Source: Thermoleophilia bacterium SCSIO 60948 (GTDB lineage Bacteria > Actinomycetota > Thermoleophilia > Solirubrobacterales > 70-9). Taken from it: 64,000 nt of DNA. The stretch lies in NCBI GenBank assembly GCA_021496505.1, contig CP053031.1:1364001-1428000 (forward strand). Direction: 5' to 3'. The translations under genes and the position numbers were made by a program. The notes beneath the pieces were generated by a model. That model was not told the DNA's origin, did no database searches, and saw only the letters and a program-made list of their open reading frames with translations. This document shows, piece after piece, positions 10,989 through 26,501 of the stretch; positions within the stretch are counted from its first letter, which is position 1; each line of letters starts with the position of its first letter.

Positions 10989-12494
10989 CTATGCGATCAC
11001 ATCGGTCTCACGGGATCCTAAGGCGCCCGGAGGCGCGGGGTCCGCGGGTCCCGAGGCCGGCCGCCGGATGCGCTCGCGCACATAGGTGATGAGCTGCGGG
11101 GCCATGACCCGCACGGCGAGCACGAAGGCGGCGGCGCCCGCGACGCCTCCGGCCAGGAGCGCCAGCCACGGCGAGTCGATCAGCAGCGCCGCGGCGCCGA
11201 CCGGGATCGCCATCACGACGCTCGCGGTGACCGGGACGACGAGCGCACCGAGCCATTCGCGGGCCCGGACGTCCAGCATCCGCGTGGCGATGAGAAGCGA
11301 GACGAGCTCGGCAGCCCCGGCGACCGCCGCCTGGCAGGCTGCGACGACCTCGATCCCGAGGTCGGCGAACGCGATCAGCAGGCCGACGATCACCGCGAGC
11401 CTGACGAGGGCCAGCCCGAACAGGATCGACGCGCGCCCGGTCGCCTTCAGCATCTGGCCCCCCGGTGTCCCGAGCGCGATCGTCAGCGCGTAGATCGACA
11501 GGATCTGCATCACCACGACCGAGTCGGCCCACTGGCTGCCGAACAGCGCGATCACGAACGGCTCGGCCAGCAGGACGAGCCCGACGGCGACCGGGATCGT
11601 GATCAGGGCCGTGTAGCGGAACGTGGTCATGAAGACCGGGCCGCGGTCGGCGGGCGCGACGGCCGACATCGCCGGGAACAGGACCTGGCCGGCGACGTTC
11701 GAGATGTTGAGGACGATCAGCTCGGGCAGCCGGAAGGCGAGCGTGTAGAGGCCGAGGGCCGCGCTGCCCAGCAGCTTGCCGATGAACATGTAGTCGACGT
11801 TCGAGATCACCGCCGCCGTCAGGTTCAGCCCGGTGATCGCCCCGCCGAAGCCGATCATCCCGCGCAGCATGTCCCCGCTGAAGCGTGGCCTCGGCCGCCA
11901 CTCGACCACTACCCAGATCGCGATCACGAGCGCCAGGGTGCCGAGCAGGTAGCCGATGACGAGGCTCCAGGCCCCGAAGCCGAGCAGCGCGAGGACGATG
12001 CCGGCCGTGGCCCGCACGATGACGTCCGCGAACTCGGCGATCGTCCGTCCCTTGAAGTCGAGGCGCCGCTGCGCGAGCGCGTAGTGGGTGGTTCCGAGTG
12101 AGCGCAGCAGGAAGTTGCCGCCGAGCGCCGCCGCGATCCCGACGAGCTCGGGCTCGCTGAAGAAATCGGCCAGGAACGGGCCCATCGCAGCGATGACGAC
12201 GGTGAGGACGGCCCCGATCGTGACCGTGCTGATGAACACCGTGTCGGCGCGCCGGTCGAGGTCCTCGTCCGGCGCGATCACGAGCGCGGGCCCGAGCCCG
12301 AAGTCGACCGCGAGGTCGAGCAGGCCGATGAAGGTCAGCGCCAGGGCGACGAGGCCGAACTCCTCCGGCGCCAGGAGTCGGGCCAGGACCGCGGTCGAGA
12401 CGAGCACGAGCAACCGCCCGCCGGCATACGAGCCGTAGGCCCACGCCATACCGCGCAGCGTGCGTCCGCCGATCCCCGCTGCGCTCTCTGACAC
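10989..12494 (-). CDS. wzx: Wzx-type polysaccharide flippase (MOP superfamily)
   Basis: A 501-residue integral membrane protein with about 12-14 hydrophobic helices. It begins GRTLRGMAWAYGSYAGGRLLVLVSTAVLARLLAPEEFGLVAL, the hallmark opening of the Polysacc_synt/MOP flippases, and repeats the pattern later (GFGAWSLVIGYLLGTLALV, GGQMLKATGRASILFG). These proteins move undecaprenyl-linked repeat units across the membrane. It starts at GTG (12494) with a TATAGA box ending 7 nt before it, so the mRNA is probably leaderless. The gene is divergent from the polymerase at 12575. A second flippase lies at 21948. Confidence 0.9.
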   Translation of the reverse strand: MSESAAGIGGRTLRGMAWAYGSYAGGRLLVLVSTAVLARLLAPEEFGLVALALTFIGLLDLAVDFGLGPALVIAPDEDLDRRADTVFISTVTIGAVLTVVIAAMGPFLADFFSEPELVGIAAALGGNFLLRSLGTTHYALAQRRLDFKGRTIAEFADVIVRATAGIVLALLGFGAWSLVIGYLLGTLALVIAIWVVVEWRPRPRFSGDMLRGMIGFGGAITGLNLTAAVISNVDYMFIGKLLGSAALGLYTLAFRLPELIVLNISNVAGQVLFPAMSAVAPADRGPVFMTTFRYTALITIPVAVGLVLLAEPFVIALFGSQWADSVVVMQILSIYALTIALGTPGGQMLKATGRASILFGLALVRLAVIVGLLIAFADLGIEVVAACQAAVAGAAELVSLLIATRMLDVRAREWLGALVVPVTASVVMAIPVGAAALLIDSPWLALLAGGVAGAAAFVLAVRVMAPQLITYVRERIRRPASGPADPAPPGALGSRETDVIA

Positions 12495-12554: not shown

Positions 12555-12575
12555 ATGACCGCTACGAGCACCTGA
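12555..12575 (+). CDS. Six-codon upstream ORF coupled to the polymerase gene
   Basis: The reading ATG ACC GCT ACG AGC ACC TGA (peptide MTATST) ends in TGATG, whose ATG is the start of the O-antigen polymerase gene. A TAAGAT box at 12537-12542 could be the -10 element, placing the transcription start near this upstream ATG, whereas the polymerase ATG has no Shine-Dalgarno sequence. Translation of the polymerase may therefore depend on termination-reinitiation at the mini-ORF. Chance occurrence is possible; no conservation data are available. Confidence 0.35.
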   Translation: MTATST

Positions 12576-13957
12576 TGGCGGTCGTCGCCGCCGAGCCGCC
12601 GCGCCGCGCTAGCGCCTGGTCGACGACCGCGTTCGCGGCCGCGATCGGGCTGGCCGCTGCCGTCGTGGTCGCGGCGGCGCTCACGCGTGGGGTCGAGCTC
12701 GGCGTCGCGATCCTCCTCGGCAGCCTGTTCGTGCCCGTCGCGCTGTTCAACCTGCCGCTGGCGGCCGCGCTGTGGCTGCCGTTGATGTTCGTGGAGCGTG
12801 TTCCCGCCGTCGGCCTCGGGGTCACGGGGCTCGGGCTGATCGTCGTCGGTGCGTGGACGCTGGCGGTGAGCCGCCGTCGTGGCGCGCTCGCCGCCCAGTT
12901 CGCGCGCTTCCCCGCGGTTTGGCTCGCCGTCGCCGCATTGCTGTCGTGGCTGACGCTGTCCGTCGCGTGGGCGGCGGATCCGGCGCTCGTGCTCGTCGAC
13001 GTCTGGAACTGGTGGGTCGCCGCACTGCTGATGGTGATCGTCGTCGGCGTCGTCAACTCCGAGCGCCACGCCCGCTGGGTGGCGGTCGCGTTCGTCGTCG
13101 GCGCGGCGCTGTCGGTCATCGCGGGCCTGGTCCCGGGTGCCGTCGCGCCGGTCGAGGGCCTCGAGGCGGGCAGGTTCTCGGGCTCGTTCGGAGACCCGAA
13201 CTATCTCGCCGCCGGGCTCGTGCCCGCGCTGGCCATCGCGGCTGCGCTCTACGCGTCCGAGCGCTCCCCGGCGCTGAGGGCGATGCTCGTGGCGACGTCG
13301 ATGGTGCTGCTCGTCGCGACGATCGCGACCGGCTCGAGGGGAGGCCTGCTCGCGATCGCCGCGGCGCTGATCGTCGCGCTGGTCCTGTTGCCTCGGGCCC
13401 GCGCCCGGATCGCCGTCGCCGCGATCGCCGCGATCGCGCTAGCCGGTGCCTGGATCACGATCAGCTCCCCCGAGACGATCGATCGCGTGCGCTCGTTCGA
13501 CACGAACACGGGCCGCGAGGACCTCTGGGTGGTCGCCTGGCGGGTCGCCGAGGACAACCCGGGCGTCGGCGTCGGCGTCAACAACTTCCGTGAGGTCTCG
13601 CCCGACTACGTCCGCCAGCCAGGCAGTCTCGAGCGCTCCGACCTGATCATCCGCGAGCCGACGCTGGTCCACAACGTGTATCTGCAGCAGTTCGCCGAGA
13701 CCGGGATCGTCGGATTGGTCCTGCTCCTCGCTCTCGTCGTAGCCGTGCTCGCGGCGACCTTCTCGGCGGCGCGCTCGTTCGCCCGCCGCGGGCGCGAGAC
13801 GATGTCGAATCTCTCGCTGGCGGTCCTGCTCGGGCAGGTCTCGATCCTCACCGCCTCGTTCTTCCTCTCGAACGGCTACGACAAGCGGATCTGGTTCCTG
13901 TTCGCGATCGGCGTCGGGCTCGCAGGGCTCGCGCGCCGGGAAGAGGGAGCGAGATGA
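12575..13957 (+). CDS. wzy: O-antigen ligase/polymerase family protein (Wzy-like)
   Basis: A 460-residue membrane protein with about 11-12 helices. The Wzy_C/O-antigen ligase signature is present: TIATGSRGGLLAIAAALIVA (the GSRGG loop) followed by a large extracytoplasmic loop with NTGREDLW and NPGVGVGVNNF, then LVHNVYLQQFAETGIVGLVL, the conserved H-N-x-Y-L-x-x-x-x-E-x-G segment. It would polymerise flipped repeat units or ligate a finished chain on the outer face of the membrane. The 3' end overlaps the Wzz-like gene (ATGA), pairing polymerase with chain-length regulator. Two relatives are in the window (26498-27967, 40602-42611). Confidence 0.87.
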   Translation: MAVVAAEPPRRASAWSTTAFAAAIGLAAAVVVAAALTRGVELGVAILLGSLFVPVALFNLPLAAALWLPLMFVERVPAVGLGVTGLGLIVVGAWTLAVSRRRGALAAQFARFPAVWLAVAALLSWLTLSVAWAADPALVLVDVWNWWVAALLMVIVVGVVNSERHARWVAVAFVVGAALSVIAGLVPGAVAPVEGLEAGRFSGSFGDPNYLAAGLVPALAIAAALYASERSPALRAMLVATSMVLLVATIATGSRGGLLAIAAALIVALVLLPRARARIAVAAIAAIALAGAWITISSPETIDRVRSFDTNTGREDLWVVAWRVAEDNPGVGVGVNNFREVSPDYVRQPGSLERSDLIIREPTLVHNVYLQQFAETGIVGLVLLLALVVAVLAATFSAARSFARRGRETMSNLSLAVLLGQVSILTASFFLSNGYDKRIWFLFAIGVGLAGLARREEGAR

Positions 13958-15384
13958 GCGCACGCCCCCAGGGCCCCACGGGTCTCGAGGCCGACCGTCC
14001 CGACGCGCCGGCCGAGGCGATCCGCGAGCTCCTGTCCGTGTTGCGGCGCAGGATCTGGCTGGCGCTTGCGGTGGCGCTGGCGTGCGTCGGAGCGAGCTTC
14101 GCCTTCCTCAGCGTGCGGACCGTCAGCTACGAGTCCGGTGCGCAACTGCTCGTGACACCGCTGCCTCCCGTCGACGAGACGTTCGTCGGGATCCCGGTGC
14201 TCCGAGCCGTCGGCCCCGACGCCGCGCGCCCGACACTGACGATGGCGAATCTGATCGACACGGCGGCGATCGACCGAGCCGCCGCCCGGGCGAGCGGTGT
14301 CACGGAGGCCGAGGTAGAGGCCGCGATCGACATCGAGGTCGTCGAGGGCAGCGACGTGATCGCGGTCACCGCGACGGCCTCCTCGCCCGAGGTGGCGGCC
14401 GACATCGCCAACGCCTATGTCGAGGCCGTGATCGACGTCCGCGGCGAGCTGGTCGACGATGCCCTCGAGGCCAGGGTCGAGGCCCTGAGCTCGCGACTCG
14501 AGGACGAGGCGTTCGCCGACCCGACCGAGCAGGCTGAGCTCGAGTCCAGGGTCGCCACGCTTCGCAGCGCGATCGACGGCGGGGACCCGACGCTCTCGAT
14601 CGCCCGCGAGGCGACCGTGCCGACCGCGCCGATCGAGGACCCGCCATGGATGGTCCTCGCCGCCGCCGTGATCCTCGGGTGCGTCCTCGGCGCGGCGACC
14701 GCACTGCTTCGCGAGCGAATCGGGTCTGACCGCACGCTCGGTCAGGCTGCCGCGCTCGAAGGGCTCTCGGTCGAGGTGATGGGGAGGGTCAGGCCGCGCG
14801 ACGACCGCTCCGGGGTCCGGTCGGCAGGAATCCAGGCGCTTCGCCGGCGGGTCGAGATCGCCCGCCAGCACCGCGCCGGACCCCGCACGATCGTGGTCGC
14901 CGCCTCGGGGGTCGGCACGGTCCTCGGCTCCGCCGGCTCCGAGCTGGCGATCGCCCTGGCGCGGGCGGGGTCGGAGGTCGTCGTGATCCCGACCGTCGCC
15001 GGCGGCCACGGCTCGGGGACGGACGCCCCGGATCTGCTCGACGTTGTGATGGGCGAGCCGATCGAGAGCGCGCTGCGCGCCGACGCCTCGCAGCCCGGTC
15101 TCCTGCGCCTCGCTCCTCCGAGCGAGGCCGACGCGAGTCACCTCGACGGCCTCGGCGAGCAGCTCGGAGAGGTCATCGCGGCGGCCGAGCGGGTCGCCGA
15201 CTGGGTCGTGATCGAGACCGAGTCGCTGCTCGACGGGATCGGCGCGCTGCTCTTCGCGCCGTTCGCCGATCAGCTGTTGCTCGCGCTCGACCCGGCCGAG
15301 CTGACCGAGGAGGCGAGCGCGGTGCTCGGCGATCGTGTCTCCGTCGCCCGAGGGTCGACGGAGGTCGGGCTCATCCTGCCGTGA
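13954..15384 (+). CDS. wzz: Wzz-type chain-length determinant with degenerate kinase-like domain
   Basis: A 476-residue protein. The N-terminal half is a Wzz domain: a cytoplasmic stub, a helix at about residues 32-52 (IWLALAVALACVGASFAFLS), an extracytoplasmic alpha/beta region (YESGAQLLVTPLPPVDET) and a second helix near 230 (WMVLAAAVILGCVLGAATAL). The C-terminal half is laid out like a BY-kinase, but at the Walker A position it reads VVAASGVGTVLGSAGSELA, without the GK[ST] of a P-loop, and it lacks a tyrosine tail. It is thus probably a non-catalytic partner controlling chain length with the polymerase it overlaps (ATGA). Compare the complete copies at 16271 and 30017. Confidence 0.82.
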   Translation: MSARPQGPTGLEADRPDAPAEAIRELLSVLRRRIWLALAVALACVGASFAFLSVRTVSYESGAQLLVTPLPPVDETFVGIPVLRAVGPDAARPTLTMANLIDTAAIDRAAARASGVTEAEVEAAIDIEVVEGSDVIAVTATASSPEVAADIANAYVEAVIDVRGELVDDALEARVEALSSRLEDEAFADPTEQAELESRVATLRSAIDGGDPTLSIAREATVPTAPIEDPPWMVLAAAVILGCVLGAATALLRERIGSDRTLGQAAALEGLSVEVMGRVRPRDDRSGVRSAGIQALRRRVEIARQHRAGPRTIVVAASGVGTVLGSAGSELAIALARAGSEVVVIPTVAGGHGSGTDAPDLLDVVMGEPIESALRADASQPGLLRLAPPSEADASHLDGLGEQLGEVIAAAERVADWVVIETESLLDGIGALLFAPFADQLLLALDPAELTEEASAVLGDRVSVARGSTEVGLILP

Positions 15385-16204
15385 CGTTCTGCCCGCGGGC
15401 GGTCGCGCCCGCGCCGCGCCGGGTTCGCACCCTCTGGAGGGCGTTCCAGCTCCCGGCACCACGGGCATAGAGCCAGCCCTTGACCATCATCCGGCTGGGG
15501 CTGTCGGACCGGTAGACGCCGAGCCGTGGCCAGCGCAGTGGGTTTGTCGCCATCGCCATCGAGGTCTCGTCGGAGAGCGCGGCCGCGGCGCGGTAACCGG
15601 CTCGCGCCACGGCAGCTTCGGCCTCGTCGTCGACGAGGCCGAACGGATAGGCGAAGGAGGTGCACTCGGCGTCGATCTGCTCCTCGACGTCCGCCTTGCT
15701 GCCCGCGATCTCATCGTCGAGACGACCGCGGTCGCCGACGAGGGTGAGCTTCGGATGCGTCCGCGTGTGGGCGCCGAGCTCCCAGCCGAAACGGTGCAGC
15801 GATCGCAGCTCGTCCCACGACGCCGAGGAGAGCTCGTTCGCGAAGCGTTCTTTCCAGTGGTCGATCTCGGGCCACGACCTGGCCTCCTGGAAGGCGGCCG
15901 ACTTCGAGGTCGGTACGAACACCGTCGCGGTCATCTCGAGCTCGTCGAGGATCGGCTTCGCGAGCTCGACGACCGAGCGGTAGGCGTCATCGAAGGTGAT
16001 CGCCATGAAGCGTCCGGGCGCGGTGCCGGTCACGGCCTCGGTGAAGGTCGTGGAGGCGAAGCCCTGGCGCCGGAAGCGCTTGAGCTGGGCGCGCAGGGAC
16101 TCGGGACGGACGGCCATGGCGGCCGGCCAGTCTTCGCTCACCGCGTGGTAGCAGAGGACGAGAACCTGACGCTCGCGCCGGTGATTGTGAGACGCGCCGG
16201 ACAT
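15371..16204 (-). CDS. Polysaccharide deacetylase (carbohydrate esterase 4)
   Basis: A 277-residue NodB-fold protein. VLVLCYHAVSEDWPAAM opens the fold, MAITFDDAYRSVVELA carries the metal-binding/catalytic Asp pair, WELGAHTRTHPKLT gives the H-x(3)-H metal site, and CTSFAYPFG matches motif 3 (R/FAYPFG). Such enzymes remove N-acetyl groups from cell-surface or exported polysaccharides. There is no obvious signal peptide, so it may act on lipid-linked intermediates or leave by another route. It is paralogous to the gene at 28010-28810, with the same CYHA(V/I)S(E/D)(D/G)WP opening. Its 3' end overlaps the Wzz-like gene convergently by 14 bp. Confidence 0.9.
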   Translation of the reverse strand: MSGASHNHRRERQVLVLCYHAVSEDWPAAMAVRPESLRAQLKRFRRQGFASTTFTEAVTGTAPGRFMAITFDDAYRSVVELAKPILDELEMTATVFVPTSKSAAFQEARSWPEIDHWKERFANELSSASWDELRSLHRFGWELGAHTRTHPKLTLVGDRGRLDDEIAGSKADVEEQIDAECTSFAYPFGLVDDEAEAAVARAGYRAAAALSDETSMAMATNPLRWPRLGVYRSDSPSRMMVKGWLYARGAGSWNALQRVRTRRGAGATARGQNVTAG

Positions 16205-16270: not shown

Positions 16271-17854
16271 TCACCGTCGCGCCGCGGATTCGCGGCGGCG
16301 GGGGGTGGGAGTGTCCTTGTAGTAGTACTGGCTCGACGTCGAGGCGGTGCCCACGAGGGCGATGCCGGCGGGGCGGATGCCGTTCTCCGACAGCAGCTCG
16401 CCGAGCTGCTTGAGTCGCGCGAGCCGACTCTTTCCGAGTCGCGCGACTACGAGCACCTGGTCGACCTCGAAGGCCAGCGGCAGCGAGTCGATCACCTCAG
16501 TGAACGGCGGTGAGTCGATCAGCACGAAGTCGGCGAGGCGCTTGGCCTCGTCGACGAGCTCGCGCCCCGCGGGCAGCGAGAGCAGCTCCGCGGTCGCGGC
16601 CCCGGCGTGCTCGGCGATCTTCGGCTCGGCGACGAGCAGCCGCAGGTTCGGCCCGTATACCGGTGTCGTGACGAGCGCCTCCTCGAGGCTCGCTTCGCGA
16701 AGCAACGCGCCGGCGATCCCGTAGCGAGGCTCGATGCCCATGGCGGCGGCGATCGAGGGGCGGCGCATGTCGCTCTCGATCAGGATGACCCGGCTTCCAC
16801 CCAGCGCGAGCGAGGTGGCGAGGTTGATCGCGGTCGTCGTCTTGCCCTCCGACGGCGACGATCCCGTGATCAGGGCCGAGCGAGGCTCACCGGAGCCCCG
16901 CGGCCAGGCGGCGCTGAGCGTCGCCCGCAGGGTCCTGTAGGCCTCGCGGGCACCGGGCGTCAGACGGTCGGGCGAGAGCGGGCGCTCGGTTCTCGCCTCG
17001 CTCTGGCGCGGGATCCGGGCGAGGATCGGGACGTCGAAGAGGTCGCGGACCTGCTCCTCCCGGCGCAGCCGGGGGTCGAGGGCGCGGCTCGCGAGCGCGA
17101 GCGCGACTCCGATCAGCGCCCCCGCGACGACGGCGGCGAGAAGGTCGAAGAGCGGCCGGGGGCTGATCTGGACCGCCGCGTCGGCGGGGCCGACCGCCTG
17201 CAGCGTCGGGTCCGGTCCGGATCGCAGGACCTCGATCTGCGCGATCTGCGTCGCGAGCGAGTCACCCGCGAACTCGCCCGCCGATGCGTCCTCGAGCTGG
17301 TCGCGCAGCTGCGGCAGGACCTCGTCGATGCGAGCGTGGAGGTTCTCGGTCCGGTCGTCGAGCGCGGCCCCCGCGTAGGCCTCGGCGAGCGCTTCGGCCC
17401 GCTCCGGGTCGTCGGCCTGCGCCACGACGGTGACGATGTTGCTCTCGGGGATCGGCTCGATCAACACGTCCGCCGTGACGCTCTCGGGATCGACGTCGAG
17501 TCCCTCGGCGGCGTCGGCGGCGATGTCCGGAGTGTTGATGAGCTGCGCCGCGGTCTCGACGTCGAGCGAGGGGTCCGACGACTCGCGGATCAGACCCAGC
17601 GTGGCGAGGGTGGCTTCGGTCGCGGGCACGGGGTTCACCACGAGGTCGGCGCGGGACTCGTAGACCGTGGGTGCGGTGAGCAGGTAGGCGATCGCCAGGA
17701 GCAGCGCGATCAGCGGGCACGCGATGACGATCCGCGCGCGCTCGCGCAGGATCGCTACGAAGCTGACGAGGCCGCTTCGCTCCTGGCCGGAGCGCAACCA
17801 GCTGCGGCCCCGGTCCTCGCCGGTCGAGGCGCGTCTCTCCGTGCGTGCGCTCAC
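16271..17854 (-). CDS. Wzz/BY-kinase fusion (polysaccharide co-polymerase and tyrosine kinase)
   Basis: A 527-residue protein combining a Wzz domain (helices near residues 30-50 and 285-305) with a CpsD/CapB-type bacterial tyrosine kinase. The kinase has Walker A in ITGSSPSEGKTTTAINLA, Walker A' in LIESDMRRPS and Walker B in DFVLIDSPPF, and ends in a tyrosine cluster (SQYYYKD), the autophosphorylation tail. I selected the GTG at 17854 because it gives a protein only one residue longer than the paralogue at 30017; an upstream ATG at 18073 would add 73 residues of Arg-rich, unlikely sequence. The kinase normally controls polymer length through cycles of phosphorylation. Confidence 0.88.
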   Translation of the reverse strand: MSARTERRASTGEDRGRSWLRSGQERSGLVSFVAILRERARIVIACPLIALLLAIAYLLTAPTVYESRADLVVNPVPATEATLATLGLIRESSDPSLDVETAAQLINTPDIAADAAEGLDVDPESVTADVLIEPIPESNIVTVVAQADDPERAEALAEAYAGAALDDRTENLHARIDEVLPQLRDQLEDASAGEFAGDSLATQIAQIEVLRSGPDPTLQAVGPADAAVQISPRPLFDLLAAVVAGALIGVALALASRALDPRLRREEQVRDLFDVPILARIPRQSEARTERPLSPDRLTPGAREAYRTLRATLSAAWPRGSGEPRSALITGSSPSEGKTTTAINLATSLALGGSRVILIESDMRRPSIAAAMGIEPRYGIAGALLREASLEEALVTTPVYGPNLRLLVAEPKIAEHAGAATAELLSLPAGRELVDEAKRLADFVLIDSPPFTEVIDSLPLAFEVDQVLVVARLGKSRLARLKQLGELLSENGIRPAGIALVGTASTSSQYYYKDTPTPRRRESAARR

Positions 17855-18145
17855 CGGGGTCGCTCGCCTGCCCGCCGGGGTCGGCACGGACTCGAGCTGC
17901 CTCTCGTCGCGACCGGCACGCCGAGCAGCGTACTCGGGGCCGCGGCGGGCGGGGCGCGGGTCGAGGCGTCTAGTACACCCGTCGAGAACGGCCCGCCCCG
18001 GCTCGACTTTCCGCCTGACGGCCGATATCGGGGCTGAGGCCGCACCAGGGGCCTCCATGACAAAGGCGACCACGTCGCGAGGCGTGCACGCAAAGCCCGA
18101 GGTCTCGCATCGAGCGAGATGGCTCAGCTACCGGGGGGACCCACG
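17855..18145. other. Divergent intergenic region, no further gene seen
   Basis: These 291 bp separate the BY-kinase (minus) from the lyase-like gene (plus). I see no convincing small gene, repeat or terminator. A GGGGGG ribosome site (18135-18140) sits just before the ATG at 18146. The rest is ordinary high-GC sequence that must hold two promoters I cannot pinpoint. Confidence 0.5.
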
Positions 18146-19783
18146 ATGTTGGCTTCTGGCCGCGACAATCGACGCTGCGTCGCATCGGCGCTCGCGCTCA
18201 TCACGACGCTGATCCTGATGCTCGCCGGCGGCGCGCAGGCCGACGCCGCCAAGGTCAGGGTCAAGGCCGACGGGCACTCGAAGCGGGCACTCTTCTTCAA
18301 GGTCCAGGGCAGCCCCCGCGAGGTCCGTGGCGCCCACGCCCAGATCCACCGCTCGCGCCGTTCGAAGCGCGGCGGCCGGACGGTCGGGCGCCGGGTTCAG
18401 GTCAACGCCGTCCGCAACGCGATGCGTCGCGGTCGCATGGTCCGCGTGCGTGTTCCGAAGAACACGCGTCGCGGCAGCCTCATGATCATGACCCGTCCCG
18501 AGACCGCCATCACGGCCGGCCCGAGGACGGCGACCTCCGAGGTCTCGCCCGTGTTCGAGTTCGGTTCGGCCAGCGGCGTCGGCTTCGAGTGCCAGGTCGA
18601 TGCGCAGGCCGAGTGGAGCGCCTGCACGAGCCCGCTCAGCCTCACCGATCTGGCCGAGGGCCGGCACTCGCTGCGCGTTCGGGCGATCGATCGCGGAGGA
18701 GTCGCCGACGACACGCCGGCGGAGCGAGTCTTTGACGTCGACCTGACCGCTCCCGACACGGCGATCGACGAGCTCACGGTCGACGGCGGCGCCGTCGGCT
18801 ACAGCGCCTCCTCGACCGAGGAAGGATCCTCCTTCGAGTGCCGGATCGACGATGGGGTCTGGAAGACCTGCGAGGCCGCGGCGACGGTCGCCGATCTGGC
18901 TCCGGGCTCGCACCGCCTCCAGATCCGCGCGATCGACCGCGCGGGCAACGTCGATGCGGTCCCCGCCGGCGACAACTTCGCGATCGACCAGCCGGCCGAG
19001 CCGCAGAACACGGGTGCGATCCCCGGCACGGGCGCGATCATCGCCGAGGACCTCGCGTCGCAGAATCCGCTGCTCGCCCTCTGGTACAAGATCAACCCCG
19101 GCATCACCGACCGCGTCCAGACCTTCAGCTCGGGCGGCGACACGCACGAGCTCGTCGGCGGCGGCACGAACACGAGCTACCGCGAGGTCTCGATCGAGGA
19201 CGGCGACCGCGCCACCGGCGACAGCACCTCGCGCGAGCGCGTCCACGTCGGGGCCCGCGGAACCGCGCTCCAGCGCACCTTCCACAAGTTCCGCGAGGGC
19301 GAGGAGGTCATCCTCTACAACTCGTTCCGGCTCCAGGACGAGGCGCCCGACTTCCCCGACCCGAACGGCCGCGGCGCCTACTCGAAGACGCAGATGTGGC
19401 AGATCATCCACGACCAGTCCTGCGGCGAGTCACCCCGGATCCACATGTACGAGTACGCGAACAAGGTCGCGCTCGTGACGAGCGAGATGGGCGTCGGCGA
19501 GACGACGCTGTGGTCGGCGCCCGTCGAGCGCGGCGAGTGGTACCGGATGGCGGTCAAGCTGAAGATGTCGACCGATCCGGGCCAGGGTCTCGTCGAGGTC
19601 TGGGGCGACATGGACCAGGACGGTGAGCTCGAGCAGCTCAGTGACACGATCACCACGAACACGCTGCACGGCGGCGCCTGTGGCGACAGTGCGGACCTCT
19701 TCTTCGGCCGCTACCAGAACTCGTCGATCGGCCCGAGCCACATCGACTTCGCGAACTGGCAGCTCACCCGGTGGGTGCGCTAG
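18146..19783 (+). CDS. Secreted heparin-lyase-like protein with two Ig-like repeats
   Basis: A 545-residue exported protein. A signal peptide covers about residues 1-35 (ALALITTLILMLAGGAQADA). Two repeats of about 85 residues follow, each with an F-E-C-x-(V/I)-D core and a C-x-x-(P/A) partner cysteine, ending SLRVRAIDRGG or RLQIRAIDRAGNVD; these are Ig-like adhesion repeats. The C-terminal 250 residues resemble the polysaccharide lyase family including heparin lyase I (PF14099-type jelly roll): GTALQRTFHKFREGEEVILYNSF, KTQMWQIIHDQ, GEWYRMAVKLKMSTDPGQG and FGRYQNSSIGPSHIDFANW. The start at 18146 has a strong ribosome site. In this locus it may trim or release the exported polysaccharide. Catalytic activity is inferred. 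Confidence 0.75.
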   Translation: MLASGRDNRRCVASALALITTLILMLAGGAQADAAKVRVKADGHSKRALFFKVQGSPREVRGAHAQIHRSRRSKRGGRTVGRRVQVNAVRNAMRRGRMVRVRVPKNTRRGSLMIMTRPETAITAGPRTATSEVSPVFEFGSASGVGFECQVDAQAEWSACTSPLSLTDLAEGRHSLRVRAIDRGGVADDTPAERVFDVDLTAPDTAIDELTVDGGAVGYSASSTEEGSSFECRIDDGVWKTCEAAATVADLAPGSHRLQIRAIDRAGNVDAVPAGDNFAIDQPAEPQNTGAIPGTGAIIAEDLASQNPLLALWYKINPGITDRVQTFSSGGDTHELVGGGTNTSYREVSIEDGDRATGDSTSRERVHVGARGTALQRTFHKFREGEEVILYNSFRLQDEAPDFPDPNGRGAYSKTQMWQIIHDQSCGESPRIHMYEYANKVALVTSEMGVGETTLWSAPVERGEWYRMAVKLKMSTDPGQGLVEVWGDMDQDGELEQLSDTITTNTLHGGACGDSADLFFGRYQNSSIGPSHIDFANWQLTRWVR

Positions 19784-19822: not shown

Positions 19823-20962
19823 GTGCGCCTGGCGGTCTTCAGCGGCAACGAGTACCAGTCGGTCGGTGGAAGGCTGTTCGCCGACCGTGCCTTCGTCCTC
19901 TTCCTCGCGGCGCTGGCGGGGGAGCTCGGCGGGGTCCGGCTGCTCGGGCGGATCAGCGAGGGCAGCGACCGCGCCCGCTACGAGCTCTCGCCCCAGATCA
20001 CGTTCGTCCCGTTGAAGAGCTACAGCAGCCTCGGCCGCCCGCTCGTCGCGATGGCGGCGACGATCCGCTCCTTCCGCACCGCGTGGAGGAGCCTCGACGA
20101 GGTCGACACCGTGTGGGCGCTCGGCCCGCATCCCGTCGGCCTGATGCTGGTCCTGATCGGACTGATGCGTCGCCGCAGGGTCGTCCTCGGCGTTCGCCAG
20201 GAGACGATCTCCTACGTACGCAGCCGCCACCCCGGGCGGCGGGCGCTGATCGCGCTCGGCGTCGCCCTCGAGCTCACGTGGCGAGCGCTCGCGCGGGTGC
20301 TCCCGACCGTCGTCGTCGGGCCTGAGCTCGCGGAGATCTATCGCCGGTCCCCGCGGATGCACGAGCTGATCGTGAGCCTGGTCTCCGAGCGCGAGCTCGA
20401 GGCGCCCGCGGCGGGGGAGCCCGACTCCGGCGAGGTCACGCGGCTGATCAGCGTCGGCCGGATCGAGACGGAGAAGAATCCGCTGCTGCTCGCCGACGTC
20501 CTCGAGATCCTCGAGCGCGACGAGCCCGGCCGCTGGACGCTGTCGGTCTGCGGCGAGGGGCCGCTGACCGCGGCCCTCGGAGAGCGGCTCGAGCACAACG
20601 GAGTGCTCTCGCGGGCGACCCTGGAGGGGTACGTCCCGTTCGCCGAGCTCGCCGAGCGATACCGCGCCGCCGACGTGTTCGTGGCGACCTCGTGGACCGA
20701 GGGTTTCCCGCAGACCTTCGTCGAGGCCTTCGCCGCGGGTCTCCCGGTCGTATCGACCGACGTCGGCGGGATCCGGCGCGCCGCCGAGGATGCGGTGGTG
20801 CTGGTCCCGGCCGGCGACGCGCAGGCGCTGGCCGACGGATTACGACGAGTGCGTGACGATGGGTCCGAGCGCGAGCGTCTGCGGCGCGCCGGCGCCGGAT
20901 GGATCCGGGCCCACACCCTCGAGCGCGAGGTCGACGGGCTGCTCGGTTTCCTCGCGCGCTAG
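19823..20962 (+). CDS. Glycosyltransferase family 4
   Basis: A 379-residue GT-B enzyme starting at GTG (RLAVFSGNEYQSVGGRLFAD). Donor-half motifs are RLISVGRIETEKNPLLLADVLEIL, LSVCGEGPLTAALGERL, LEGYVPFAELAERYRAADVFVATS and TEGFPQTFVEAFAAGLPVVSTDVGG, with the EX7E motif. The likely -10 box 7 nt upstream suggests a leaderless transcript separate from the lyase gene before it. Its stop overlaps the stop of the convergent sulfotransferase by 4 bp. Sugar specificity is unknown. Confidence 0.88.
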   Translation: MRLAVFSGNEYQSVGGRLFADRAFVLFLAALAGELGGVRLLGRISEGSDRARYELSPQITFVPLKSYSSLGRPLVAMAATIRSFRTAWRSLDEVDTVWALGPHPVGLMLVLIGLMRRRRVVLGVRQETISYVRSRHPGRRALIALGVALELTWRALARVLPTVVVGPELAEIYRRSPRMHELIVSLVSERELEAPAAGEPDSGEVTRLISVGRIETEKNPLLLADVLEILERDEPGRWTLSVCGEGPLTAALGERLEHNGVLSRATLEGYVPFAELAERYRAADVFVATSWTEGFPQTFVEAFAAGLPVVSTDVGGIRRAAEDAVVLVPAGDAQALADGLRRVRDDGSERERLRRAGAGWIRAHTLEREVDGLLGFLAR

Positions 20963-21924
20963 GCCGGCGCCTCGCCCGCCGGGACCTCGATCTCGGCGTC
21001 GTCGACCGTCGGCAGCTCCATGCTCGGCGTGCTCCTGACCGAGTTCGCGCGATTCATGAACTCGACGACGCGGTCGCCGTCCTCGTCGCTCAGGTGCTCC
21101 CGCCACCGCTCACGTGAGTCGTAGAACGAGCGCCTGGCGATCCGCCGCTCGAACGCGGGCGTCCAGTCGAGGCCGGTCTCCCGCACGATCCCGCGCAGCG
21201 TTTCGACCGGCGCGCCGACGAGATCCTCGTAGCTCGTCTCGAGCGTCGGGTTGGGAAGCAGGGCGTCGTTGGCCTCGATGTCATCGAGGTCGAGCCGGAT
21301 CTTCAGCGCAGCCGACATGATCGCGTCGCCGCCGAGCTCGGACCACGCGGCCATGTAGGCCCCGGGGACGGCACCCCATTCCCAGCCGGGCGTGTCGGGT
21401 GCCCTGGTCACGTTGAGCCAACCGGCCTGCATCCACGAACTGACCACCGAGCGCGGGTCGCGCTTGAGATGGATGAACGTCGCACCCGGGAAGACGCGGT
21501 CGAAGTAGGCCATCCGCGACCAGCCCGTCACCTTGACCAGCAGGCGCCGTCCGCCCTGTGCGCGGACGAGCCGATCCGCCGCGACCCGCACACGGCGGGC
21601 GCCTTCCTCGGGCACGTCGGAGGCCTCGAGGGGGCTCTCCCGGCGCGAGAAGCCCGGCATGTAGTGCTCCCAGAAGCGGTAGGCCTCGTACGGCTTCGGG
21701 AAAACCTTTGCGTGACGAACCCTGGTCGACAGCGGCAGCCGGTAGAGGTTCGAGAGCACGCCGAGCGAAGTGCGCTCTGGCATGACCTCGTTGTACGGCG
21801 AAATCCACGCGAGCTGCTCGTGCTCGGCGAGCAGGCGATGCAGCAGGGTCGAGCCACATCGGCCGGTGCCGACGATGATGAGCGGGGCCTCCCGGCCCGC
21901 GTCTGTCGCCTCCTCAAAGCGCAT
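20959..21924 (-). CDS. PAPS-dependent sulfotransferase family protein
   Basis: A 321-residue protein with the 5'-phosphosulfate loop LIIVGTGRCGSTLLHRLLAEH near the N-terminus and the 3'-phosphate-binding segment FPGATFIHLKRDPRSVVSSWM (the R-D-P-R-S motif) around residue 155. These define sulfotransferases that move sulfate from PAPS to a carbohydrate or small-molecule hydroxyl or amine. I use the ATG at 21924; a TTG two codons upstream is possible. It is divergent from the flippase at 21948 and is one of three sulfotransferases in the locus, with weak mutual similarity, so each probably has a distinct acceptor position. Confidence 0.85.
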   Translation of the reverse strand: MRFEEATDAGREAPLIIVGTGRCGSTLLHRLLAEHEQLAWISPYNEVMPERTSLGVLSNLYRLPLSTRVRHAKVFPKPYEAYRFWEHYMPGFSRRESPLEASDVPEEGARRVRVAADRLVRAQGGRRLLVKVTGWSRMAYFDRVFPGATFIHLKRDPRSVVSSWMQAGWLNVTRAPDTPGWEWGAVPGAYMAAWSELGGDAIMSAALKIRLDLDDIEANDALLPNPTLETSYEDLVGAPVETLRGIVRETGLDWTPAFERRIARRSFYDSRERWREHLSDEDGDRVVEFMNRANSVRSTPSMELPTVDDAEIEVPAGEAPA

Positions 21925-21947
21925 CAGCAAGGGAAGATAGCCACGCG

Positions 21948-23459
21948 ATGGGCGCGAGCCACCAGGTCCAGCAACAAGCAGGTTCCACCGACTCGATGAG
22001 TCGAAACTCCCTGTTTGCTCTGCTGACGCGAATCAGTACCGCGGTGGCGACCGCGATCATCACCCTCTACCTGGTCCGCGCCCTGGGTCCGGAGGGGTTC
22101 GGTGTCTTCGCGCTGGCGGTGAGCACCGGCGGCCTGCTGCGGCGGCCCTCCGAGGTCGGGATCACCCAGTCGGCGGCTCGGTTCGTCGCCGAGCGCCACG
22201 ACGACCTCCGCGGCGTGGCCGGGGTGCTCGGCGTCGCGCTGCGTCTGCGCACCACGACCGCGAGCCTGATCGGCGTCGCCCTGTTCGTGCTCGCCGGACC
22301 GATCGCGGAGCTCTACTCGACGCCGGAGCTGCTCTGGCCGTTGCGAGCGATCGCGATCTCGTTCATCGGCCAGAGCATCCTCGCCTTCGCGCTCGCCATG
22401 TTCACGGCGCTTCGTCGGACGCGCACCGGCTTCTGGCTCGTCACGGTCGAGTCGACGCTCGAGCTCACGGCGACGGTCGCCCTGGTCGTCCTGTTCGGCG
22501 GAGCCACCGCCGCGACGGCCGGCCGAGCGATCGCATACGTCGCCGGCGCGATCCTCGCGATCTGGCTCCTCGGGCGGATGCTCGGGCGACCGGCGATGGT
22601 CCGGACGGGGCCGAGCCCGGTCTCGCGGCGTGAGTTCATGACCTACTCCGGGGCGATGTTCATCGTCGCCGGCGCGTTCACGGCTTTCAGCGTCATCGAT
22701 GTGCTGTTGCTCGGCGCGTTGCTCGATCCGACCGCCGTCGCAATCTTCAGCGCGCCGCTGCAGCTGATCACCTTCCTCGGGTTCGTCGGACTGGCCGTCT
22801 CCCAGGGCGTCGCGCCCCATCACGTGCGCCGGGCCGATCGCTCGCCCCCCGTAGCGGCACTCGAGCGGGCGATCAGGCTCGTTCTGATCGTGCAGGCGTT
22901 GTTCGTCCCGTTCGCCGTCCTGTGGGCGGGGCCGATCGTCGAGCTGGCGCTCGGCCCGGATTTCGAGGCGTCGGCCGATGTGCTCCGGGGGATGTCGCTG
23001 TACCTGTTCCTGACCGGTGTCGGGCCGCTCCTGTTCGCGCCGTTGAACTACATGGGCGAGGCGCGGCGTCGGATACCGATCGCGATCTCGGCGCTGCTCA
23101 TCAACGCGGTCATCGACCTGATCCTCATTCCGCGGATCGGGGTGATGGGGGCGGTGATCGGATGCACGGTCGGCTACACGCTCTTCATCGGCGCGCACCT
23201 CTGGCTCTGCCGCGTCGTGATCGGGATCTCGGTCGCGCGTATCGCTCGGACGGCGGTCGCCGTCCTGGTTGCCGCGGCGCTGTCCGGCGCCGTCCTGCTC
23301 GCGGTCGGGACGTCGGATCTCGGCATCGTGCAGTGGATCGGCGGCGCGGTCGGAGCCGGGCTGGTCTACCTCGGCGCGGTCCTGGCGAGTCGCGACCTCA
23401 GCCGCGAGGAGCTCGGGATGCTCACCCAGCTCCCGAAGCGGGCGCTCGGCCGCCGATGA
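21948..23459 (+). CDS. Second Wzx-type polysaccharide flippase (MOP superfamily)
   Basis: A 503-residue multi-helix membrane protein. SRNSLFALLTRISTAVATAII leads into LYLVRALGPEGFGVFALAVS, the standard flippase opening, and there are about 12-14 hydrophobic helices. It is only loosely similar to the flippase at 10989. The ATG at 21948 gives the listed length; the ATG at 21996 (MSRNSLF) is equally plausible and would remove a polar 16-residue extension. The stop overlaps the sulfotransferase ATG (ATGA), so flipping and sulfation genes are coupled. Two flippases suggest either two repeat-unit types or two polymers. Confidence 0.88.
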   Translation: MGASHQVQQQAGSTDSMSRNSLFALLTRISTAVATAIITLYLVRALGPEGFGVFALAVSTGGLLRRPSEVGITQSAARFVAERHDDLRGVAGVLGVALRLRTTTASLIGVALFVLAGPIAELYSTPELLWPLRAIAISFIGQSILAFALAMFTALRRTRTGFWLVTVESTLELTATVALVVLFGGATAATAGRAIAYVAGAILAIWLLGRMLGRPAMVRTGPSPVSRREFMTYSGAMFIVAGAFTAFSVIDVLLLGALLDPTAVAIFSAPLQLITFLGFVGLAVSQGVAPHHVRRADRSPPVAALERAIRLVLIVQALFVPFAVLWAGPIVELALGPDFEASADVLRGMSLYLFLTGVGPLLFAPLNYMGEARRRIPIAISALLINAVIDLILIPRIGVMGAVIGCTVGYTLFIGAHLWLCRVVIGISVARIARTAVAVLVAAALSGAVLLAVGTSDLGIVQWIGGAVGAGLVYLGAVLASRDLSREELGMLTQLPKRALGRR

Positions 23460-24424
23460 GCGCGGAGCGTGCGCCGTCTCGAGGCTATGTTGCGCCGGTG
23501 CCGGCGCCGCCATCACGAGCCACGACCCGACGCCCCGACTTCTTCCTCGTCGGCGCCCCGAAGTGCGGGACCACGGCCATGGACGACTACCTGCGCTCGC
23601 ATCCCGAGATCGGCATGTGCGACCGCAAGGAGACCCAGTTCCTAGCCGGCGAGCAGATGTGGCGGCGCTTCGGAACCGCGGGCGAGCCCGAGATCACCGA
23701 GGCGCGATACCTCGAGATGTTCGCCGACGCGCAGGGCTTCGGGCGGATCGGCGAGTCGTCGGTCTGGTACCTGTACTCGCGCGAGGCTCCGAGCCGGATC
23801 CACCGCTTCTCACCGGACGCCCAGATCGTGGTGATGCTCCGCAATCCGCTCGAGATGCTGCCCTCGCTGCACTCCCAGTTCGTCTACGTCGGACTCGAGC
23901 CGGAGCCGGATTTCGATCGCGCGCTGGCACTCGATCCCGCGCGCGAAGCGGGGGAGAGGCCGCCCGGGTTCCCGCCGGACTCCTACCTCTCGGCTGCGCG
24001 CTACGACGAGCAGATCGCGCGGTATCTCGATGAGTTCGGTGCCGAGCGCGTGCTTCTCGTCACGTACGACGAGTTCCGAGCCGACACCGCGGCCGCCTAC
24101 CGGCGGGTGCTCGAGTTCCTCCGGGTGGACCCGTCGTTCACGCCCTCATTCGAGGTGGTCAACGCCAACAAGCGGGTCCGCAGCTCGGCGCTGCGGACCG
24201 CGGTTCGAAATCCGCCACCGGCGCTTCGACGGGCTCTGCACGCGGTCTCGACGCAGCGAATGCGCCGCCGCACCGCGCTCGTGCTCCATCGCGTCAACAG
24301 CCAGCAGGTCGATCGCGCCGCGCTCAGCGACGGCGCGCGGGAGATGATCCGACCGCTGGTCGCCGAGCAGGTCGAGCGCCTGCGTGCGCTGTGCGGGCTC
24401 GAGCTCGACGCCTGGCTGGCCTGA
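23456..24424 (+). CDS. Sulfotransferase domain protein (heparan N-sulfotransferase-like class)
   Basis: A 322-residue protein. The 5'-phosphosulfate loop is FFLVGAPKCGTTAMDDYLRS, the Lys-Cys-Gly-Thr-Thr form found in heparan sulfate and other carbohydrate sulfotransferases, followed by KETQFL. The 3'-phosphate region is QIVVMLRNPLEMLPSLHSQF, the R-N-P-x-x-x-x-x-S motif. Late motifs include ERVLLVTYDEFRAD. Coupled to the flippase by ATGA. It probably sulfates the polysaccharide or its lipid-linked precursor; substrate is inferred from context only. Confidence 0.87.
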   Translation: MSAERAPSRGYVAPVPAPPSRATTRRPDFFLVGAPKCGTTAMDDYLRSHPEIGMCDRKETQFLAGEQMWRRFGTAGEPEITEARYLEMFADAQGFGRIGESSVWYLYSREAPSRIHRFSPDAQIVVMLRNPLEMLPSLHSQFVYVGLEPEPDFDRALALDPAREAGERPPGFPPDSYLSAARYDEQIARYLDEFGAERVLLVTYDEFRADTAAAYRRVLEFLRVDPSFTPSFEVVNANKRVRSSALRTAVRNPPPALRRALHAVSTQRMRRRTALVLHRVNSQQVDRAALSDGAREMIRPLVAEQVERLRALCGLELDAWLA

Positions 24425-25719
24425 GCCGCCGTCCCTTCGCACGCCGCCGCCGCGGCTACCCTGCGCAGGCAGCCCCGTCAGCGCCACGGTTCTCACCCTC
24501 GCCCTCCATCGAAGTCATCGCCGACCAGACCCCCTTCCGAACCGGCTCGCCGGCCGGTCTCGGGCGTCCGCTGCGCGTCCTCACGCTGCTCGACGGCCTC
24601 GGGCTGGGCGGCGGCGCCGAGCGGATCGCTCGCGACGTCATGGTCGGCCTGGACCCGGCGCGCTTCGAGCGCACGATCTGCGCGAGTCGCTGGCCCGACG
24701 AGCGCGCCAGTCCGGAGGCATCGGCGGCGGCGCTCGAGCGCTTCGAGCGCGCCGGCGTCAGGTTCATCGGTCTCAAGCGCTCCTCGGCCAAGGACCTCAC
24801 GGCCTGGAAGCCGCTGATATCGATGATGCGACGTGAGCGGATCGACGTTCTGCACTCCCACGGCTTCGGGTCCAACGTCTGGGGTGCTCTGACGGGGAGC
24901 CTCGCGAGCGTCCCGGTGATCGTCGCCCACGAGCACACGTGGTCCTTCGAGGGGCGCCCGTTGCGCAAGTTCCTCGACCGTCAGCTGATCGCTCGGCGCG
25001 CCGACGCCTTCCTCGCCGTCTCGAGCGAGGACCGGCGGCGGATGATCGAGATAGAGGGGATCCCCGAGGACAAGGTCACCTTCGTGCCGAACGGGATCCC
25101 GACGCCGGGCGAGCGCGGCGAGGCCGCGGGGCTGCGAACCGAGTTCGGGATCCCTCCCGGCGCGCCCGTGGTCGGGACGGTCTGCACGCTGCGAAGGCAG
25201 AAGGCCCTCGATGTCCTGGTCGGGGCCGCGGTCAAGCTCCGGGTCGAGTTCCCCGACCTGCGCGTGCTGATCATCGGCAACGGCAAGGAACGGGCCTACG
25301 TCGAGGAGGCGATCGCGCGCTTCGACGCCGAGCCGACCGTGATCCTCGCGGGCTTCAGGCCCGACGCGACCGATCTCGTCCACATGTTCGATGTCGCGGC
25401 ATGCTCGTCGGACTTCGAGGGCACCCCGCTCTCGATCCTCGAGTACATGGAGGCACGAGTCCCGGTGGTCGCGACGAGGGTCGGCGGCATCCCCGACATG
25501 ATTCGCCCGGGCGTCGAGGGCGAGCTGGTCGAGCCGCGGGACCCGAGCGGGCTCGCCGAGGCGATCGCGCGCCTGCTCCGTGACCCCGCGATGGCGCGGG
25601 CGATGGGCGAGCGGGGAAGGTTGCGACGCCGCGAGGAGTTCGAGATCGGCGTGACGGTCGAGCGGATCGCCGCGATCTACGAGCGGCTTCGCTCCGCACC
25701 CGGCAAGCCCGCCATCTGA
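24391..25719 (+). CDS. Glycosyltransferase family 4
   Basis: A 442-residue GT-B enzyme. The catalytic fold begins at LRVLTLLDGLGLGGGAERIARDV (about residue 61), and the 60 residues before it are Arg/Pro-rich. Donor motifs are VGTVCTLRRQKALDVLVGAA, VLIIGNGKERAYVEEAI, VILAGFRPDATDLVHMFDVAA and FEGTPLSILEYMEARVPVVATRVGG with EX7E. The only in-frame start before the fold is GTG at 24391, overlapping the sulfotransferase end by 34 bp; a non-canonical start further in is possible, so the N-terminus is uncertain. Its 3' end overlaps the convergent sulfotransferase by 43 bp. Confidence 0.85.
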   Translation: MRARARRLAGLSRRPFARRRRGYPAQAAPSAPRFSPSPSIEVIADQTPFRTGSPAGLGRPLRVLTLLDGLGLGGGAERIARDVMVGLDPARFERTICASRWPDERASPEASAAALERFERAGVRFIGLKRSSAKDLTAWKPLISMMRRERIDVLHSHGFGSNVWGALTGSLASVPVIVAHEHTWSFEGRPLRKFLDRQLIARRADAFLAVSSEDRRRMIEIEGIPEDKVTFVPNGIPTPGERGEAAGLRTEFGIPPGAPVVGTVCTLRRQKALDVLVGAAVKLRVEFPDLRVLIIGNGKERAYVEEAIARFDAEPTVILAGFRPDATDLVHMFDVAACSSDFEGTPLSILEYMEARVPVVATRVGGIPDMIRPGVEGELVEPRDPSGLAEAIARLLRDPAMARAMGERGRLRRREEFEIGVTVERIAAIYERLRSAPGKPAI

Positions 25720-26501
25720 GCCGCCACCCGCGTGTCGCGCGGCCTTCGCGGTCGCGGGTCGCGCAGGTCATAGCCCCACGCGCCGGCCGCCTCGTCGAAG
25801 CGGCGGCTGAGCAGCGCCGCGCGGGCACGCTTGACGGGGTTGGGTCCTGACGCTCCCCAGCGCTCGAAATACTTCTCGTTCAGCCGTGGTCTGACCTCGA
25901 TCTCGTGCTCGTGGGCTTCGAGTCCGATGAACGCGTAGAGGCGATCGAGCTCCGCGGCCGGATCGGCGATCAGGTCCTCGTAGCGGACGAAGCGGAGTCG
26001 CTCGACGTGCGCGGCGTCAGCCAGGCAGTCGCCCTGCGCCGCGCACCAGTTGCGAAGCAGCGCCGCCACCGACCTCGTCCGCGCCCACTTCTTCGTCGCG
26101 TAGGTCACCGCGATCGGGTGGCGGACGACGACGATGAACAGCGACCCGGGAAACATCGCCTGGAGGAAGCGCATCCGGATCATGTTCGGAGGGGACTTCT
26201 CGAGCAGCACCGGTCTTTCGAGGTCCCAGTGCTCGGCCCACGAACCCCACATCCGGCGCCCGTTCTCTTCGGTCAGGAGCGGTGAGGACTCGGTCAGGCG
26301 ACTCGCGTGATCGAGCGCGAACAACCCCGGCCCGCCGTAGGCACGCGCCGGCGGGACGACGTCCTGGAGGTGCTGGCCCTCGTCCTCCCAGACCCCGGTG
26401 TCGGAGAAGCCGCTGATCTGCGGGTGCTCGCTCATCCACCGCGCGAGCGGGGTGGTACCGCTGCGGTGAAGGCCCCCGATGAAGACCAGGCGGTGGTTCA
26501 T
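25677..26501 (-). CDS. Sulfotransferase family protein (Sulfotransfer_3 type)
   Basis: A 274-residue protein. The PAPS loop is LVFIGGLHRSGTTPLARWMS (H-R-S-G-T-T), and the 3'-phosphate site is PGSLFIVVVRHPIAVTYATKK (R-H-P). RLRFVRYEDLIADPAAELDRLYAFIGL matches the late conserved segment of these enzymes. The ATG at 26501 overlaps the stop of the upstream O-antigen ligase gene (ATGA), which fixes the start and the operon order. Third sulfotransferase in the polysaccharide region; acceptor unknown. Confidence 0.86.
   Translation of the reverse strand: MNHRLVFIGGLHRSGTTPLARWMSEHPQISGFSDTGVWEDEGQHLQDVVPPARAYGGPGLFALDHASRLTESSPLLTEENGRRMWGSWAEHWDLERPVLLEKSPPNMIRMRFLQAMFPGSLFIVVVRHPIAVTYATKKWARTRSVAALLRNWCAAQGDCLADAAHVERLRFVRYEDLIADPAAELDRLYAFIGLEAHEHEIEVRPRLNEKYFERWGASGPNPVKRARAALLSRRFDEAAGAWGYDLRDPRPRRPRDTRVAAQMAGLPGAERSRS

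Follow-up and report, generated by a model that had tools for sequence, protein, structure and literature searches.

The question raised by this locus is what a protein with the fold of a polysaccharide lyase may do when it is encoded among genes for the synthesis of an exopolysaccharide. AlgL, a lyase encoded in the alginate operon, and thus in the synthesis locus of its own polymer, offers a parallel in gene position but is an alpha-barrel PL5 enzyme of the Gram-negative periplasm. The window analysed here is a stretch of 64,000 nucleotides from Thermoleophilia bacterium SCSIO 60948, in which one gene encodes Ig-like repeats followed by a lyase-fold domain. We find that its product is a diverged member of an established fold family, with a link to synthesis loci. 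Our tentative answer is that it would trim or release the polymer of its own locus, with the possibility that it holds this polymer uncut close behind.

An exopolysaccharide locus with sulfotransferases

The original prediction, made from the sequence of the window, placed the gene inside a polysaccharide synthesis locus, and this is confirmed by the Pfam matches of the surrounding genes, which include Wzx, Wzy, Wzz, GT4, deacetylase and sulfotransferase genes (Table 1). In total, the locus encodes two GNAT proteins, six GT4 glycosyltransferases, two Wzx, two Wzy_C, two polysaccharide deacetylases, two sulfotransferases and three Wzz-type proteins (two of them with a kinase-like domain), together with a DUF2334-like protein (under the cut-off) and a sortase. 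The exopolysaccharide genes form an island between argD and argG (642-33736) that ends in the sortase, and upstream of argD lie thrS (Pfam) and, assigned by size and order only, pheS, pheT, argC and argJ (L029). A similar frame exists in genome G065, where pheT, argC, argJ, argB and argD (Pfam) are followed by lyase-domain genes and, further on, by genes that we named by eye from their sequence starts as Wzx, Wzy, Wzz, sortase and argG (L055). In genome G272, three tandem lyase genes are found near GT4, Wzx, PAP2 and nucleotide-sugar dehydrogenase genes. The island of the window also holds, at 9503-10876 on the minus strand, the gene of a 457-aa protein, apparently secreted as judged by eye, that gave no Pfam, NCBIfam or PDB sequence match.

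Table 1. Features of the exopolysaccharide island and of the lyase-fold gene (positions in the window).
Feature	Coordinates	Strand	Evidence and remarks
argD	642-1835		Aminotran_3 (Pfam)
GT4 glycosyltransferase	3492-4718	+	Pfam
GT4 glycosyltransferase	within 5680-7122	+	Pfam
GT4 glycosyltransferase	7095-8357	-	Pfam
GT4 glycosyltransferase	8297-9415	-	Pfam
Wzx-type flippase	10989-12494	-	Pfam
Wzy_C O-antigen ligase/polymerase family protein	12575-13957	+	Pfam
Wzz-type protein	13954-15384	+	At cut-off, 25.5 bits
Polysaccharide deacetylase	15371-16204	-	IcaB/PgaB-like under NCBIfam cut-off
Wzz plus tyrosine-autokinase-like protein	16271-18073	-	Divergent neighbour of the lyase-fold gene
Ig-like plus Polysacc_lyase protein	18146-19783	+	ORF, Pfam, GC3; alternative start 18119
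Likely signal peptide	18146-18247	+	By eye; cleavage near AQADA
Ig-like repeat 1	18494-18742	+	aa ~126-208; Cys158 and Cys169
Ig-like repeat 2	18743-18991	+	aa ~209-291; Cys241 and Cys251
Predicted beta-jelly-roll lyase-fold domain (PF14099)	19031-19780	+	Pfam, alignments, AlphaFold2, Foldseek, VIA-align
Arg374-Val-His376	19238-19246	+	Alignments; His376 in PL20 Glu55 column
Gln428-Ile-Ile-His431, altered Q-x-H motif	19400-19411	+	Alignments; register uncertain
Tyr532, putative equivalent of PL20 catalytic Tyr200	19712-19714	+	Alignments
GT4 glycosyltransferase	19823-20962	+	39 bases downstream of the lyase-fold gene, same strand
Sulfotransferase	20959-21930	-	PF13469
Second Wzx-type flippase	21948-23459	+	
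Second sulfotransferase domain	23522-24424	+	PF13469/PF00685; within ORF 22922-24424
GT4 glycosyltransferase	24391-25719	+	
Second Wzy_C protein	26498-27967	-	
Second polysaccharide deacetylase	28010-28810	-	Best NCBIfam IcaB/PgaB, under cut-off
Second Wzz plus AAA (kinase-like) protein	30017-31597	-	
Sortase	31708-32442		
argG	32453-33736		

The presence of deacetylases and sulfotransferases in one locus suggests a deacetylated, sulfated amino-sugar polymer, and sulfation of the polymer is probable. Because the Wzx, Wzy_C and Wzz-kinase genes are each present twice (10989-31597), the locus may make two polymers. With respect to uronic acid, Pfam disclosed no nucleotide-sugar dehydrogenase among the 30 other window ORFs scanned, and the three matches in the genome all lie outside the window; the dehydrogenase of the related locus in G272 scored 434 bits with a dehydrogenase subfamily model (cut-off 189.8). 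Considering these three dehydrogenases and the APS kinase that the genome also encodes, uronate and activated sulfate could be available to the locus, which is permission and not proof. The strong first reading, in which a heparin-type lyase implied a polymer containing uronic acid, outruns this evidence.

Start site and N-terminal part of the protein

The reading frame is open from ATG 18119 (554 aa, the form to which residue numbers refer) or from ATG 18146, closes with a stop codon at 19781-19783 and has a GC3 of 0.92, which is of the coding type. ATG 18146, the start given in the original prediction, looks the better one because a GGGGGGA sequence is located six bases upstream. Inspection by eye shows an RR n-region followed by a hydrophobic stretch and an AQADA-type site, in line with the signal peptide that had been described, and the protein is probably secreted. 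The two predicted F-E-C repeats with paired cysteines, FECQVDAQAEWSAC and FECRIDDGVWKTC, were also found, each with one cysteine pair in which FEC is followed by the second cysteine 10 or 11 residues further on. They scored under the cut-offs of Pfam Big_13 (24.4 bits, cut-off 27) and of the NCBIfam OmpL47-type (38.7 bits, cut-off 40) and Ca_tandemer (38.1 bits, cut-off 50) models. Since the confidence of this part of the AlphaFold2 model is mostly below 50, the Ig fold is proposed here from sequence only.

We considered whether these repeats were a special feature of the protein and rejected the idea. The pair has 10 matches in its own genome, itself included, and is therefore an ordinary module, and other members of the subfamily bear different or no recognised N-terminal modules. 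One member (L023) has an RTX repeat in that place, and another (L054) carries PKD and CBM_4_9 domains behind the lyase domain.

Family and fold of the C-terminal domain

The C-terminal domain matched Pfam PF14099 (Polysacc_lyase) with 31.0 bits for a cut-off of 29.9, covering positions 56-171 of the 210 in the profile, and GH131_N at E 0.1 with 12.7 bits, which does not reach its cut-off of 23.1. The alternative of a closer LamG-type match gained no support, as no LamG-type family was present among the Pfam matches to E 1; legume-type lectins appeared in the Foldseek list from rank 25 downward. A single-protein sequence search of the PDB gave no match at E up to 1. The 11-row subfamily profile had the PL20 glucuronan lyase TrGL (2zzj) as its top PDB match (E 0.0049), and the profile of 16 canonical relatives, by which we mean PF14099 members outside the subfamily, matched 2zzj at E 3.3e-10 and one PL7 at E 0.0062. 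These were the only lyases matched by the sequence profiles at E up to 1, a range in which neither search returned a GH131 chain. When aligned in forced global mode with the profile of the canonical relatives plus TrGL, the subfamily profile reached a probability of 99.4 and that of the window protein and its paralog alone 97.2.

The structure was predicted with AlphaFold2 from a 29-row alignment. From model residue 261 onwards, 19 of 26 ten-residue blocks average 85-97 in confidence and the other 7 average 61-74, with the block of Arg374 and His376 at about 67 and those of Gln428 and Tyr532 at 89. With this model, the first Foldseek rank went to 2zzj (E 4.9e-10) and the second to a GH131 structure, followed by heparinase I at ranks 3 and 4. 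In VIA-align, where we regarded rows within 1 Z as tied, the model gave Z values of 21.0 (9k7o) to 19.2 for GH131, 19.5 for 2zzj (208 residues, rmsd 3.2, 16% identity), 18.5 (3ina) to 17.7 for heparinase I, about 15 for PL7 and 14.9 for Cip1 (3zyp). The predicted domain is thus the jelly roll common to PL20, PL13 and PL7 lyases and to GH131, in agreement with the lyase-type fold that had been proposed. However, with a best Z of 21.0 for GH131 as against 19.5 for PL20, the modelled fold alone does not separate a lyase from a GH131 hydrolase, nor elimination from hydrolysis.

The more specific proposal of a heparin lyase I fold held only in part. The model does match heparinase I (3ina, 3ikw), but at 11-12% identity, and we rejected heparinase I as the nearest relative because PL20 is closer by sequence profile and Foldseek rank and because both GH131 and PL20 score a higher Z. 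Among lyases, it is the PL20 glucuronan lyase that both the sequence profiles and Foldseek place nearest. In heparinase I the catalytic residues are His151 and Tyr357; the window protein has the tyrosine of the family.

A paralog and a small subfamily

A Pfam search of the genome disclosed one PF14099 copy, but the notion of a single copy was abandoned when the protein was searched against 399 genomes of the class: 13 of them gave matches, and the genome of the window itself contained a paralog (G000:C1:1337674-1338489) with 53% identity to the window protein. With PF14099 this paralog reaches 18.5 bits, under the cut-off of 29.9. It looks like a lipoprotein by its N-terminus (LLAATVTGC, by eye), and GT4, GT2 and sulfotransferase genes are located within about 5.5 kb of it.

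Searches based on alignment A1 (11 subfamily rows) found matches at E 0.001 or better in 7 of 50 genomes of the family, five of which (G000, G065, G133, G272 and G005) hold the subfamily proper, the other two giving weak matches to canonical members. Phylum-wide, 5 of 396 spread genomes matched, and no relatives were found in the genome_contigs set. Ten full-length relatives all matched PF14099 at E 0.01 or better. Eight scored above the cut-off, with 41.2 to 58.8 bits, whereas L030 (25.0 bits) and L054 (24.1 bits) stayed under it. In a midpoint-rooted tree, 12 subfamily rows were split from 16 canonical rows plus TrGL with a support of 97/95, and the window protein and its paralog formed a group (100/99) on a long branch of 0.97 changes per column; TrGL, L030 and L054 are long branches as well, and their placement is unsure.

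Two further observations concern the relatives. In G065 (L030:8305-14076), four lyase-domain genes stand in a row, with a sulfotransferase gene between the third and the fourth, which is very divergent. In G133 (L057:11014-11433, contig C52), a short remnant of a lyase-domain gene has apparently decayed.

Altered residues at the putative active site

According to PMC7601620, the catalytic residues of TrGL are Arg51, His53, Glu55, Gln91, Tyr200 and Asp206, and the 2zzj sequence carries these letters at those positions. We compared the columns in A1, in A2 (29 rows) and in A3 (16 canonical rows). Two positions of the window protein are strongly conserved: Arg374, in the His53 column, is invariant in A2 (29/29) and found in 10 of the 11 rows of A1, the exception being L030, and Tyr532, in the Tyr200 column, is invariant in A2 (29/29). 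In the Glu55 column, all 16 canonical rows and 8 of the 11 subfamily rows have Glu, whereas the window protein and its paralog have His and L030 has Tyr or Gln, depending on the alignment. Gln occupies the Gln91 column in 16/16 canonical rows and, in A1, in 11/11 subfamily rows, but in A2 the window protein is gapped at this column. Two residues after this Gln (A1), canonical rows have His (14/16) or Lys (2/16) and subfamily rows Lys (9/11), and Ile is present in the window protein, its paralog and TrGL. At the position four residues before the Tyr, all 16 canonical rows have Lys, 8 of the 11 subfamily rows share an Arg with TrGL, L030 has Ser, and both the window protein and its paralog have Phe. 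The region corresponding to Asp206 is an unaligned loop.

Compared with the PL7-like motifs R-x-E, Q-x-H and K-x-G-x-Y, the window protein reads RVH, QIIH and F-F-G-R-Y and so departs from a set in which every one of the 16 canonical relatives in A3 has the E, Q, K and Y. It likewise lacks the full PL20 set: the Tyr is kept, Arg and His stand in the His53 and Glu55 columns, and a Gln91 equivalent is present under one of the three registers seen. In the first of these (A1 and the 11-row profile), Gln428 falls on Gln91 and QII corresponds to the QFI of TrGL; in the second, a shift of one residue in the 2- and 3-row profiles brings His431 onto the histidine of Q-x-H, and in the 2-row profile the RxH region is displaced by one as well; in the third, A2 pairs WQ with the canonical WQ and leaves a gap at Gln91. 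We prefer the register with Gln428 on Gln91 because L030 (VWQIK) bridges to VLQMK. Three of the 19 canonical matches stand outside A3, two of which (L014 and L025) are also outside A2. Inspected by eye, L025 retains RAE, QWH and K-x-G-x-Y, L051 reads RCE, QWK and KWGVY, and L014, in which no motif is clearly kept, does not fit.

As aligned, the protein has lost the Glu and the Lys/Arg of the lyase site and has kept one Arg, one Tyr and, probably, either the Gln or the His of QIIH. The absence of catalytic residues, which had been named in advance as an argument against a lyase, is therefore half true: the Arg and Tyr columns are kept, whereas the Glu, Q-x-H and Lys/Arg positions are altered in the protein and in its paralog. 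Loss of the Q-x-H histidine need not be fatal, since PL20 has Ile at that position, and a working site composed of Arg374, His376, Gln428 or His431, and Tyr532 is possible.

Linkage to synthesis genes

We scanned the surroundings of the PF14099 genes, within 10 kb or to the contig end, with small profiles of five markers (GT4, Wzx, Wzz, Wzy and sulfotransferase). The training genes came from the window and the subfamily loci, and some of them (L055, L056) were named from sequence starts, not by Pfam. The 12 subfamily rows correspond to 7 loci (the remnant L057 was left uncounted) and the 19 canonical rows to 17. At least one marker was near 10 of 12 subfamily members (5/7 loci) and 9 of 19 canonical members (7/17 loci), many canonical contigs being short (3.7 to 20 kb scanned). 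The background, taken from spaced and not random 20-kb stretches of three genomes only, showed at least one marker in 4 of 40 (G000 1/20, G286 0/10, G065 3/10). Canonical loci exceeded this background with any marker (Fisher p 0.011) and with Wzx, Wzz and Wzy only (7/17 versus 1/40, p 0.0005), and neither these counts nor those of the background are circular. For the subfamily loci the corresponding value with any marker (p 0.0015) is partly circular because their own genes fed the marker profiles. Canonical loci (L034, L058, L072-L085) are often near GT4 and Wzz or Wzx genes, and two of the seven subfamily loci (G133 C11 and G005) had none of the five markers nearby. A sulfotransferase neighbour is weaker evidence than Wz genes, since sulfotransferase matches occur in 45 of 50 genomes of the family. 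These results show that PF14099 proteins of the related genomes are recurrently linked to exopolysaccharide synthesis loci, above background. Among the literature matches listed for this class and exopolysaccharide with lyase or sulfotransferase, and for the heparin lyase I family, none dealt with such loci.

Possible cutting or holding of the polymer

We infer, as a tentative first choice, a secreted enzyme that trims or releases the chain of its own locus by beta-elimination, with secretion, catalysis, substrate and direction of action all belonging to the inference. The protein would be exported and serve as an accessory to the Wzx/Wzy exopolysaccharide that its neighbours in the locus produce, the Ig-like pair forming a spacer or surface module. 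The groove of the PL20/PL13-clan jelly roll would hold an acidic, probably sulfated chain, whose carboxylate could be neutralised by Arg374 and/or His376 and by Gln428 or His431, with Tyr532 as base/acid, so that the polymer would be trimmed or released outside the membrane. The PF14099 match above the cut-off, the PL20 fold match, the invariant Arg and Tyr columns, the locus and the linkage argue for this reading. A precedent is the deep-sea bacterium Alteromonas infernus, whose own exopolysaccharide GY785, sulfated and containing uronate, is cut by a lyase present in an extract of the producer, an enzyme for which the portion of PMC6804119 available names no family or gene. The earlier suggestion of a lyase editing the chain of the locus is reasonable for the family but only putative for this particular protein, in which the Glu, Q-x-H and Lys/Arg positions are altered. 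In comparison with TrGL, it shares the fold and the Tyr200 equivalent, but differs in the His53 and Glu55 columns and in the Phe that replaces Arg four residues before the Tyr, adds Ig-like repeats and is encoded in a synthesis locus.

Only slightly less probable, in our opinion, is a lyase fold that has lost catalysis and serves as a binding module, in which the groove would hold the sulfated polymer and the Ig pair would link it to the cell surface, so that the capsule is anchored or organised uncut. The altered Glu, Q-x-H and Lys/Arg columns in both genome copies, the gap at Gln91 in A2, the confidence of about 67 at RxH and the long branch of the pair, whose paralog stays under the PF14099 cut-off, all weaken the case for cutting, and the lipoprotein-like paralog would suit surface anchoring. 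Cip1 of Hypocrea jecorina, with the same jelly roll and a Gln in its groove but a lower structural score, is co-regulated with cellulases and, in the part of PMC3764139 available, is described as lacking convincing lyase activity. On the other hand, the invariant Arg and Tyr columns (29/29 A2 rows) speak against a mere binder, as does the retention of identical RxH and QxxH residues in two copies that are only 53% identical overall, and the His present at one position in most canonical relatives is Ile in PL20 too. Other points against cutting are the lack of a dehydrogenase match in the window, the two subfamily loci of seven without markers and a GH131 fit that is at least equal. Should the trimming enzyme that we favour be active, it would show that bacteria of this lineage devote a lyase gene to a sulfated polymer of their own making, and it would add a new enzyme with altered catalytic residues to those that act on sulfated acidic chains. 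Should the protein be inactive, it would show lyase folds taken over for binding the capsule. In both cases the locus can be put to the test as a candidate source of a sulfated bacterial exopolysaccharide.

We consider it unlikely that the protein is a scavenging lyase for polysaccharides of other organisms, placed in a synthesis locus by accident. In its favour, the PL20 enzyme of fungi and the heparinase I of Bacteroides serve degradation, and 10 of the 17 canonical loci lack a synthesis marker in the stretch scanned, several of them on short contigs; however, Pfam found no sulfatase or SusCD-like match among the 30 other window ORFs, the one MFS transporter lies beyond argG, and the linkage to synthesis genes is above background. 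Equally doubtful is the trimming enzyme in its most extended form, in which heparinase-I-clan proteins would be a recurrent Wzx/Wzy partner in this class and the present locus a tool set for a heparan-sulfate-like chain (deacetylated, sulfated and uronate-bearing) with its own trimming enzyme and a rearranged RxH/QIIH/Tyr site. Least probable of all is a GH131-type glycoside hydrolase acting on a neutral or deacetylated polymer backbone, as the top Z of GH131 (9k7o, 4le3), its second Foldseek rank and the marginal GH131_N match stand against a Pfam family passed that is Polysacc_lyase, two profile searches without a GH131 chain and a His in the Glu55 column, whereas GH131 beta-glucanases use two catalytic glutamates (the title of PDB 9k7m names an E161A mutant).

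Finally, in three related genomes (G029:C4, G198:C193 and G180:C108), many sulfotransferase matches follow one another in arrays.
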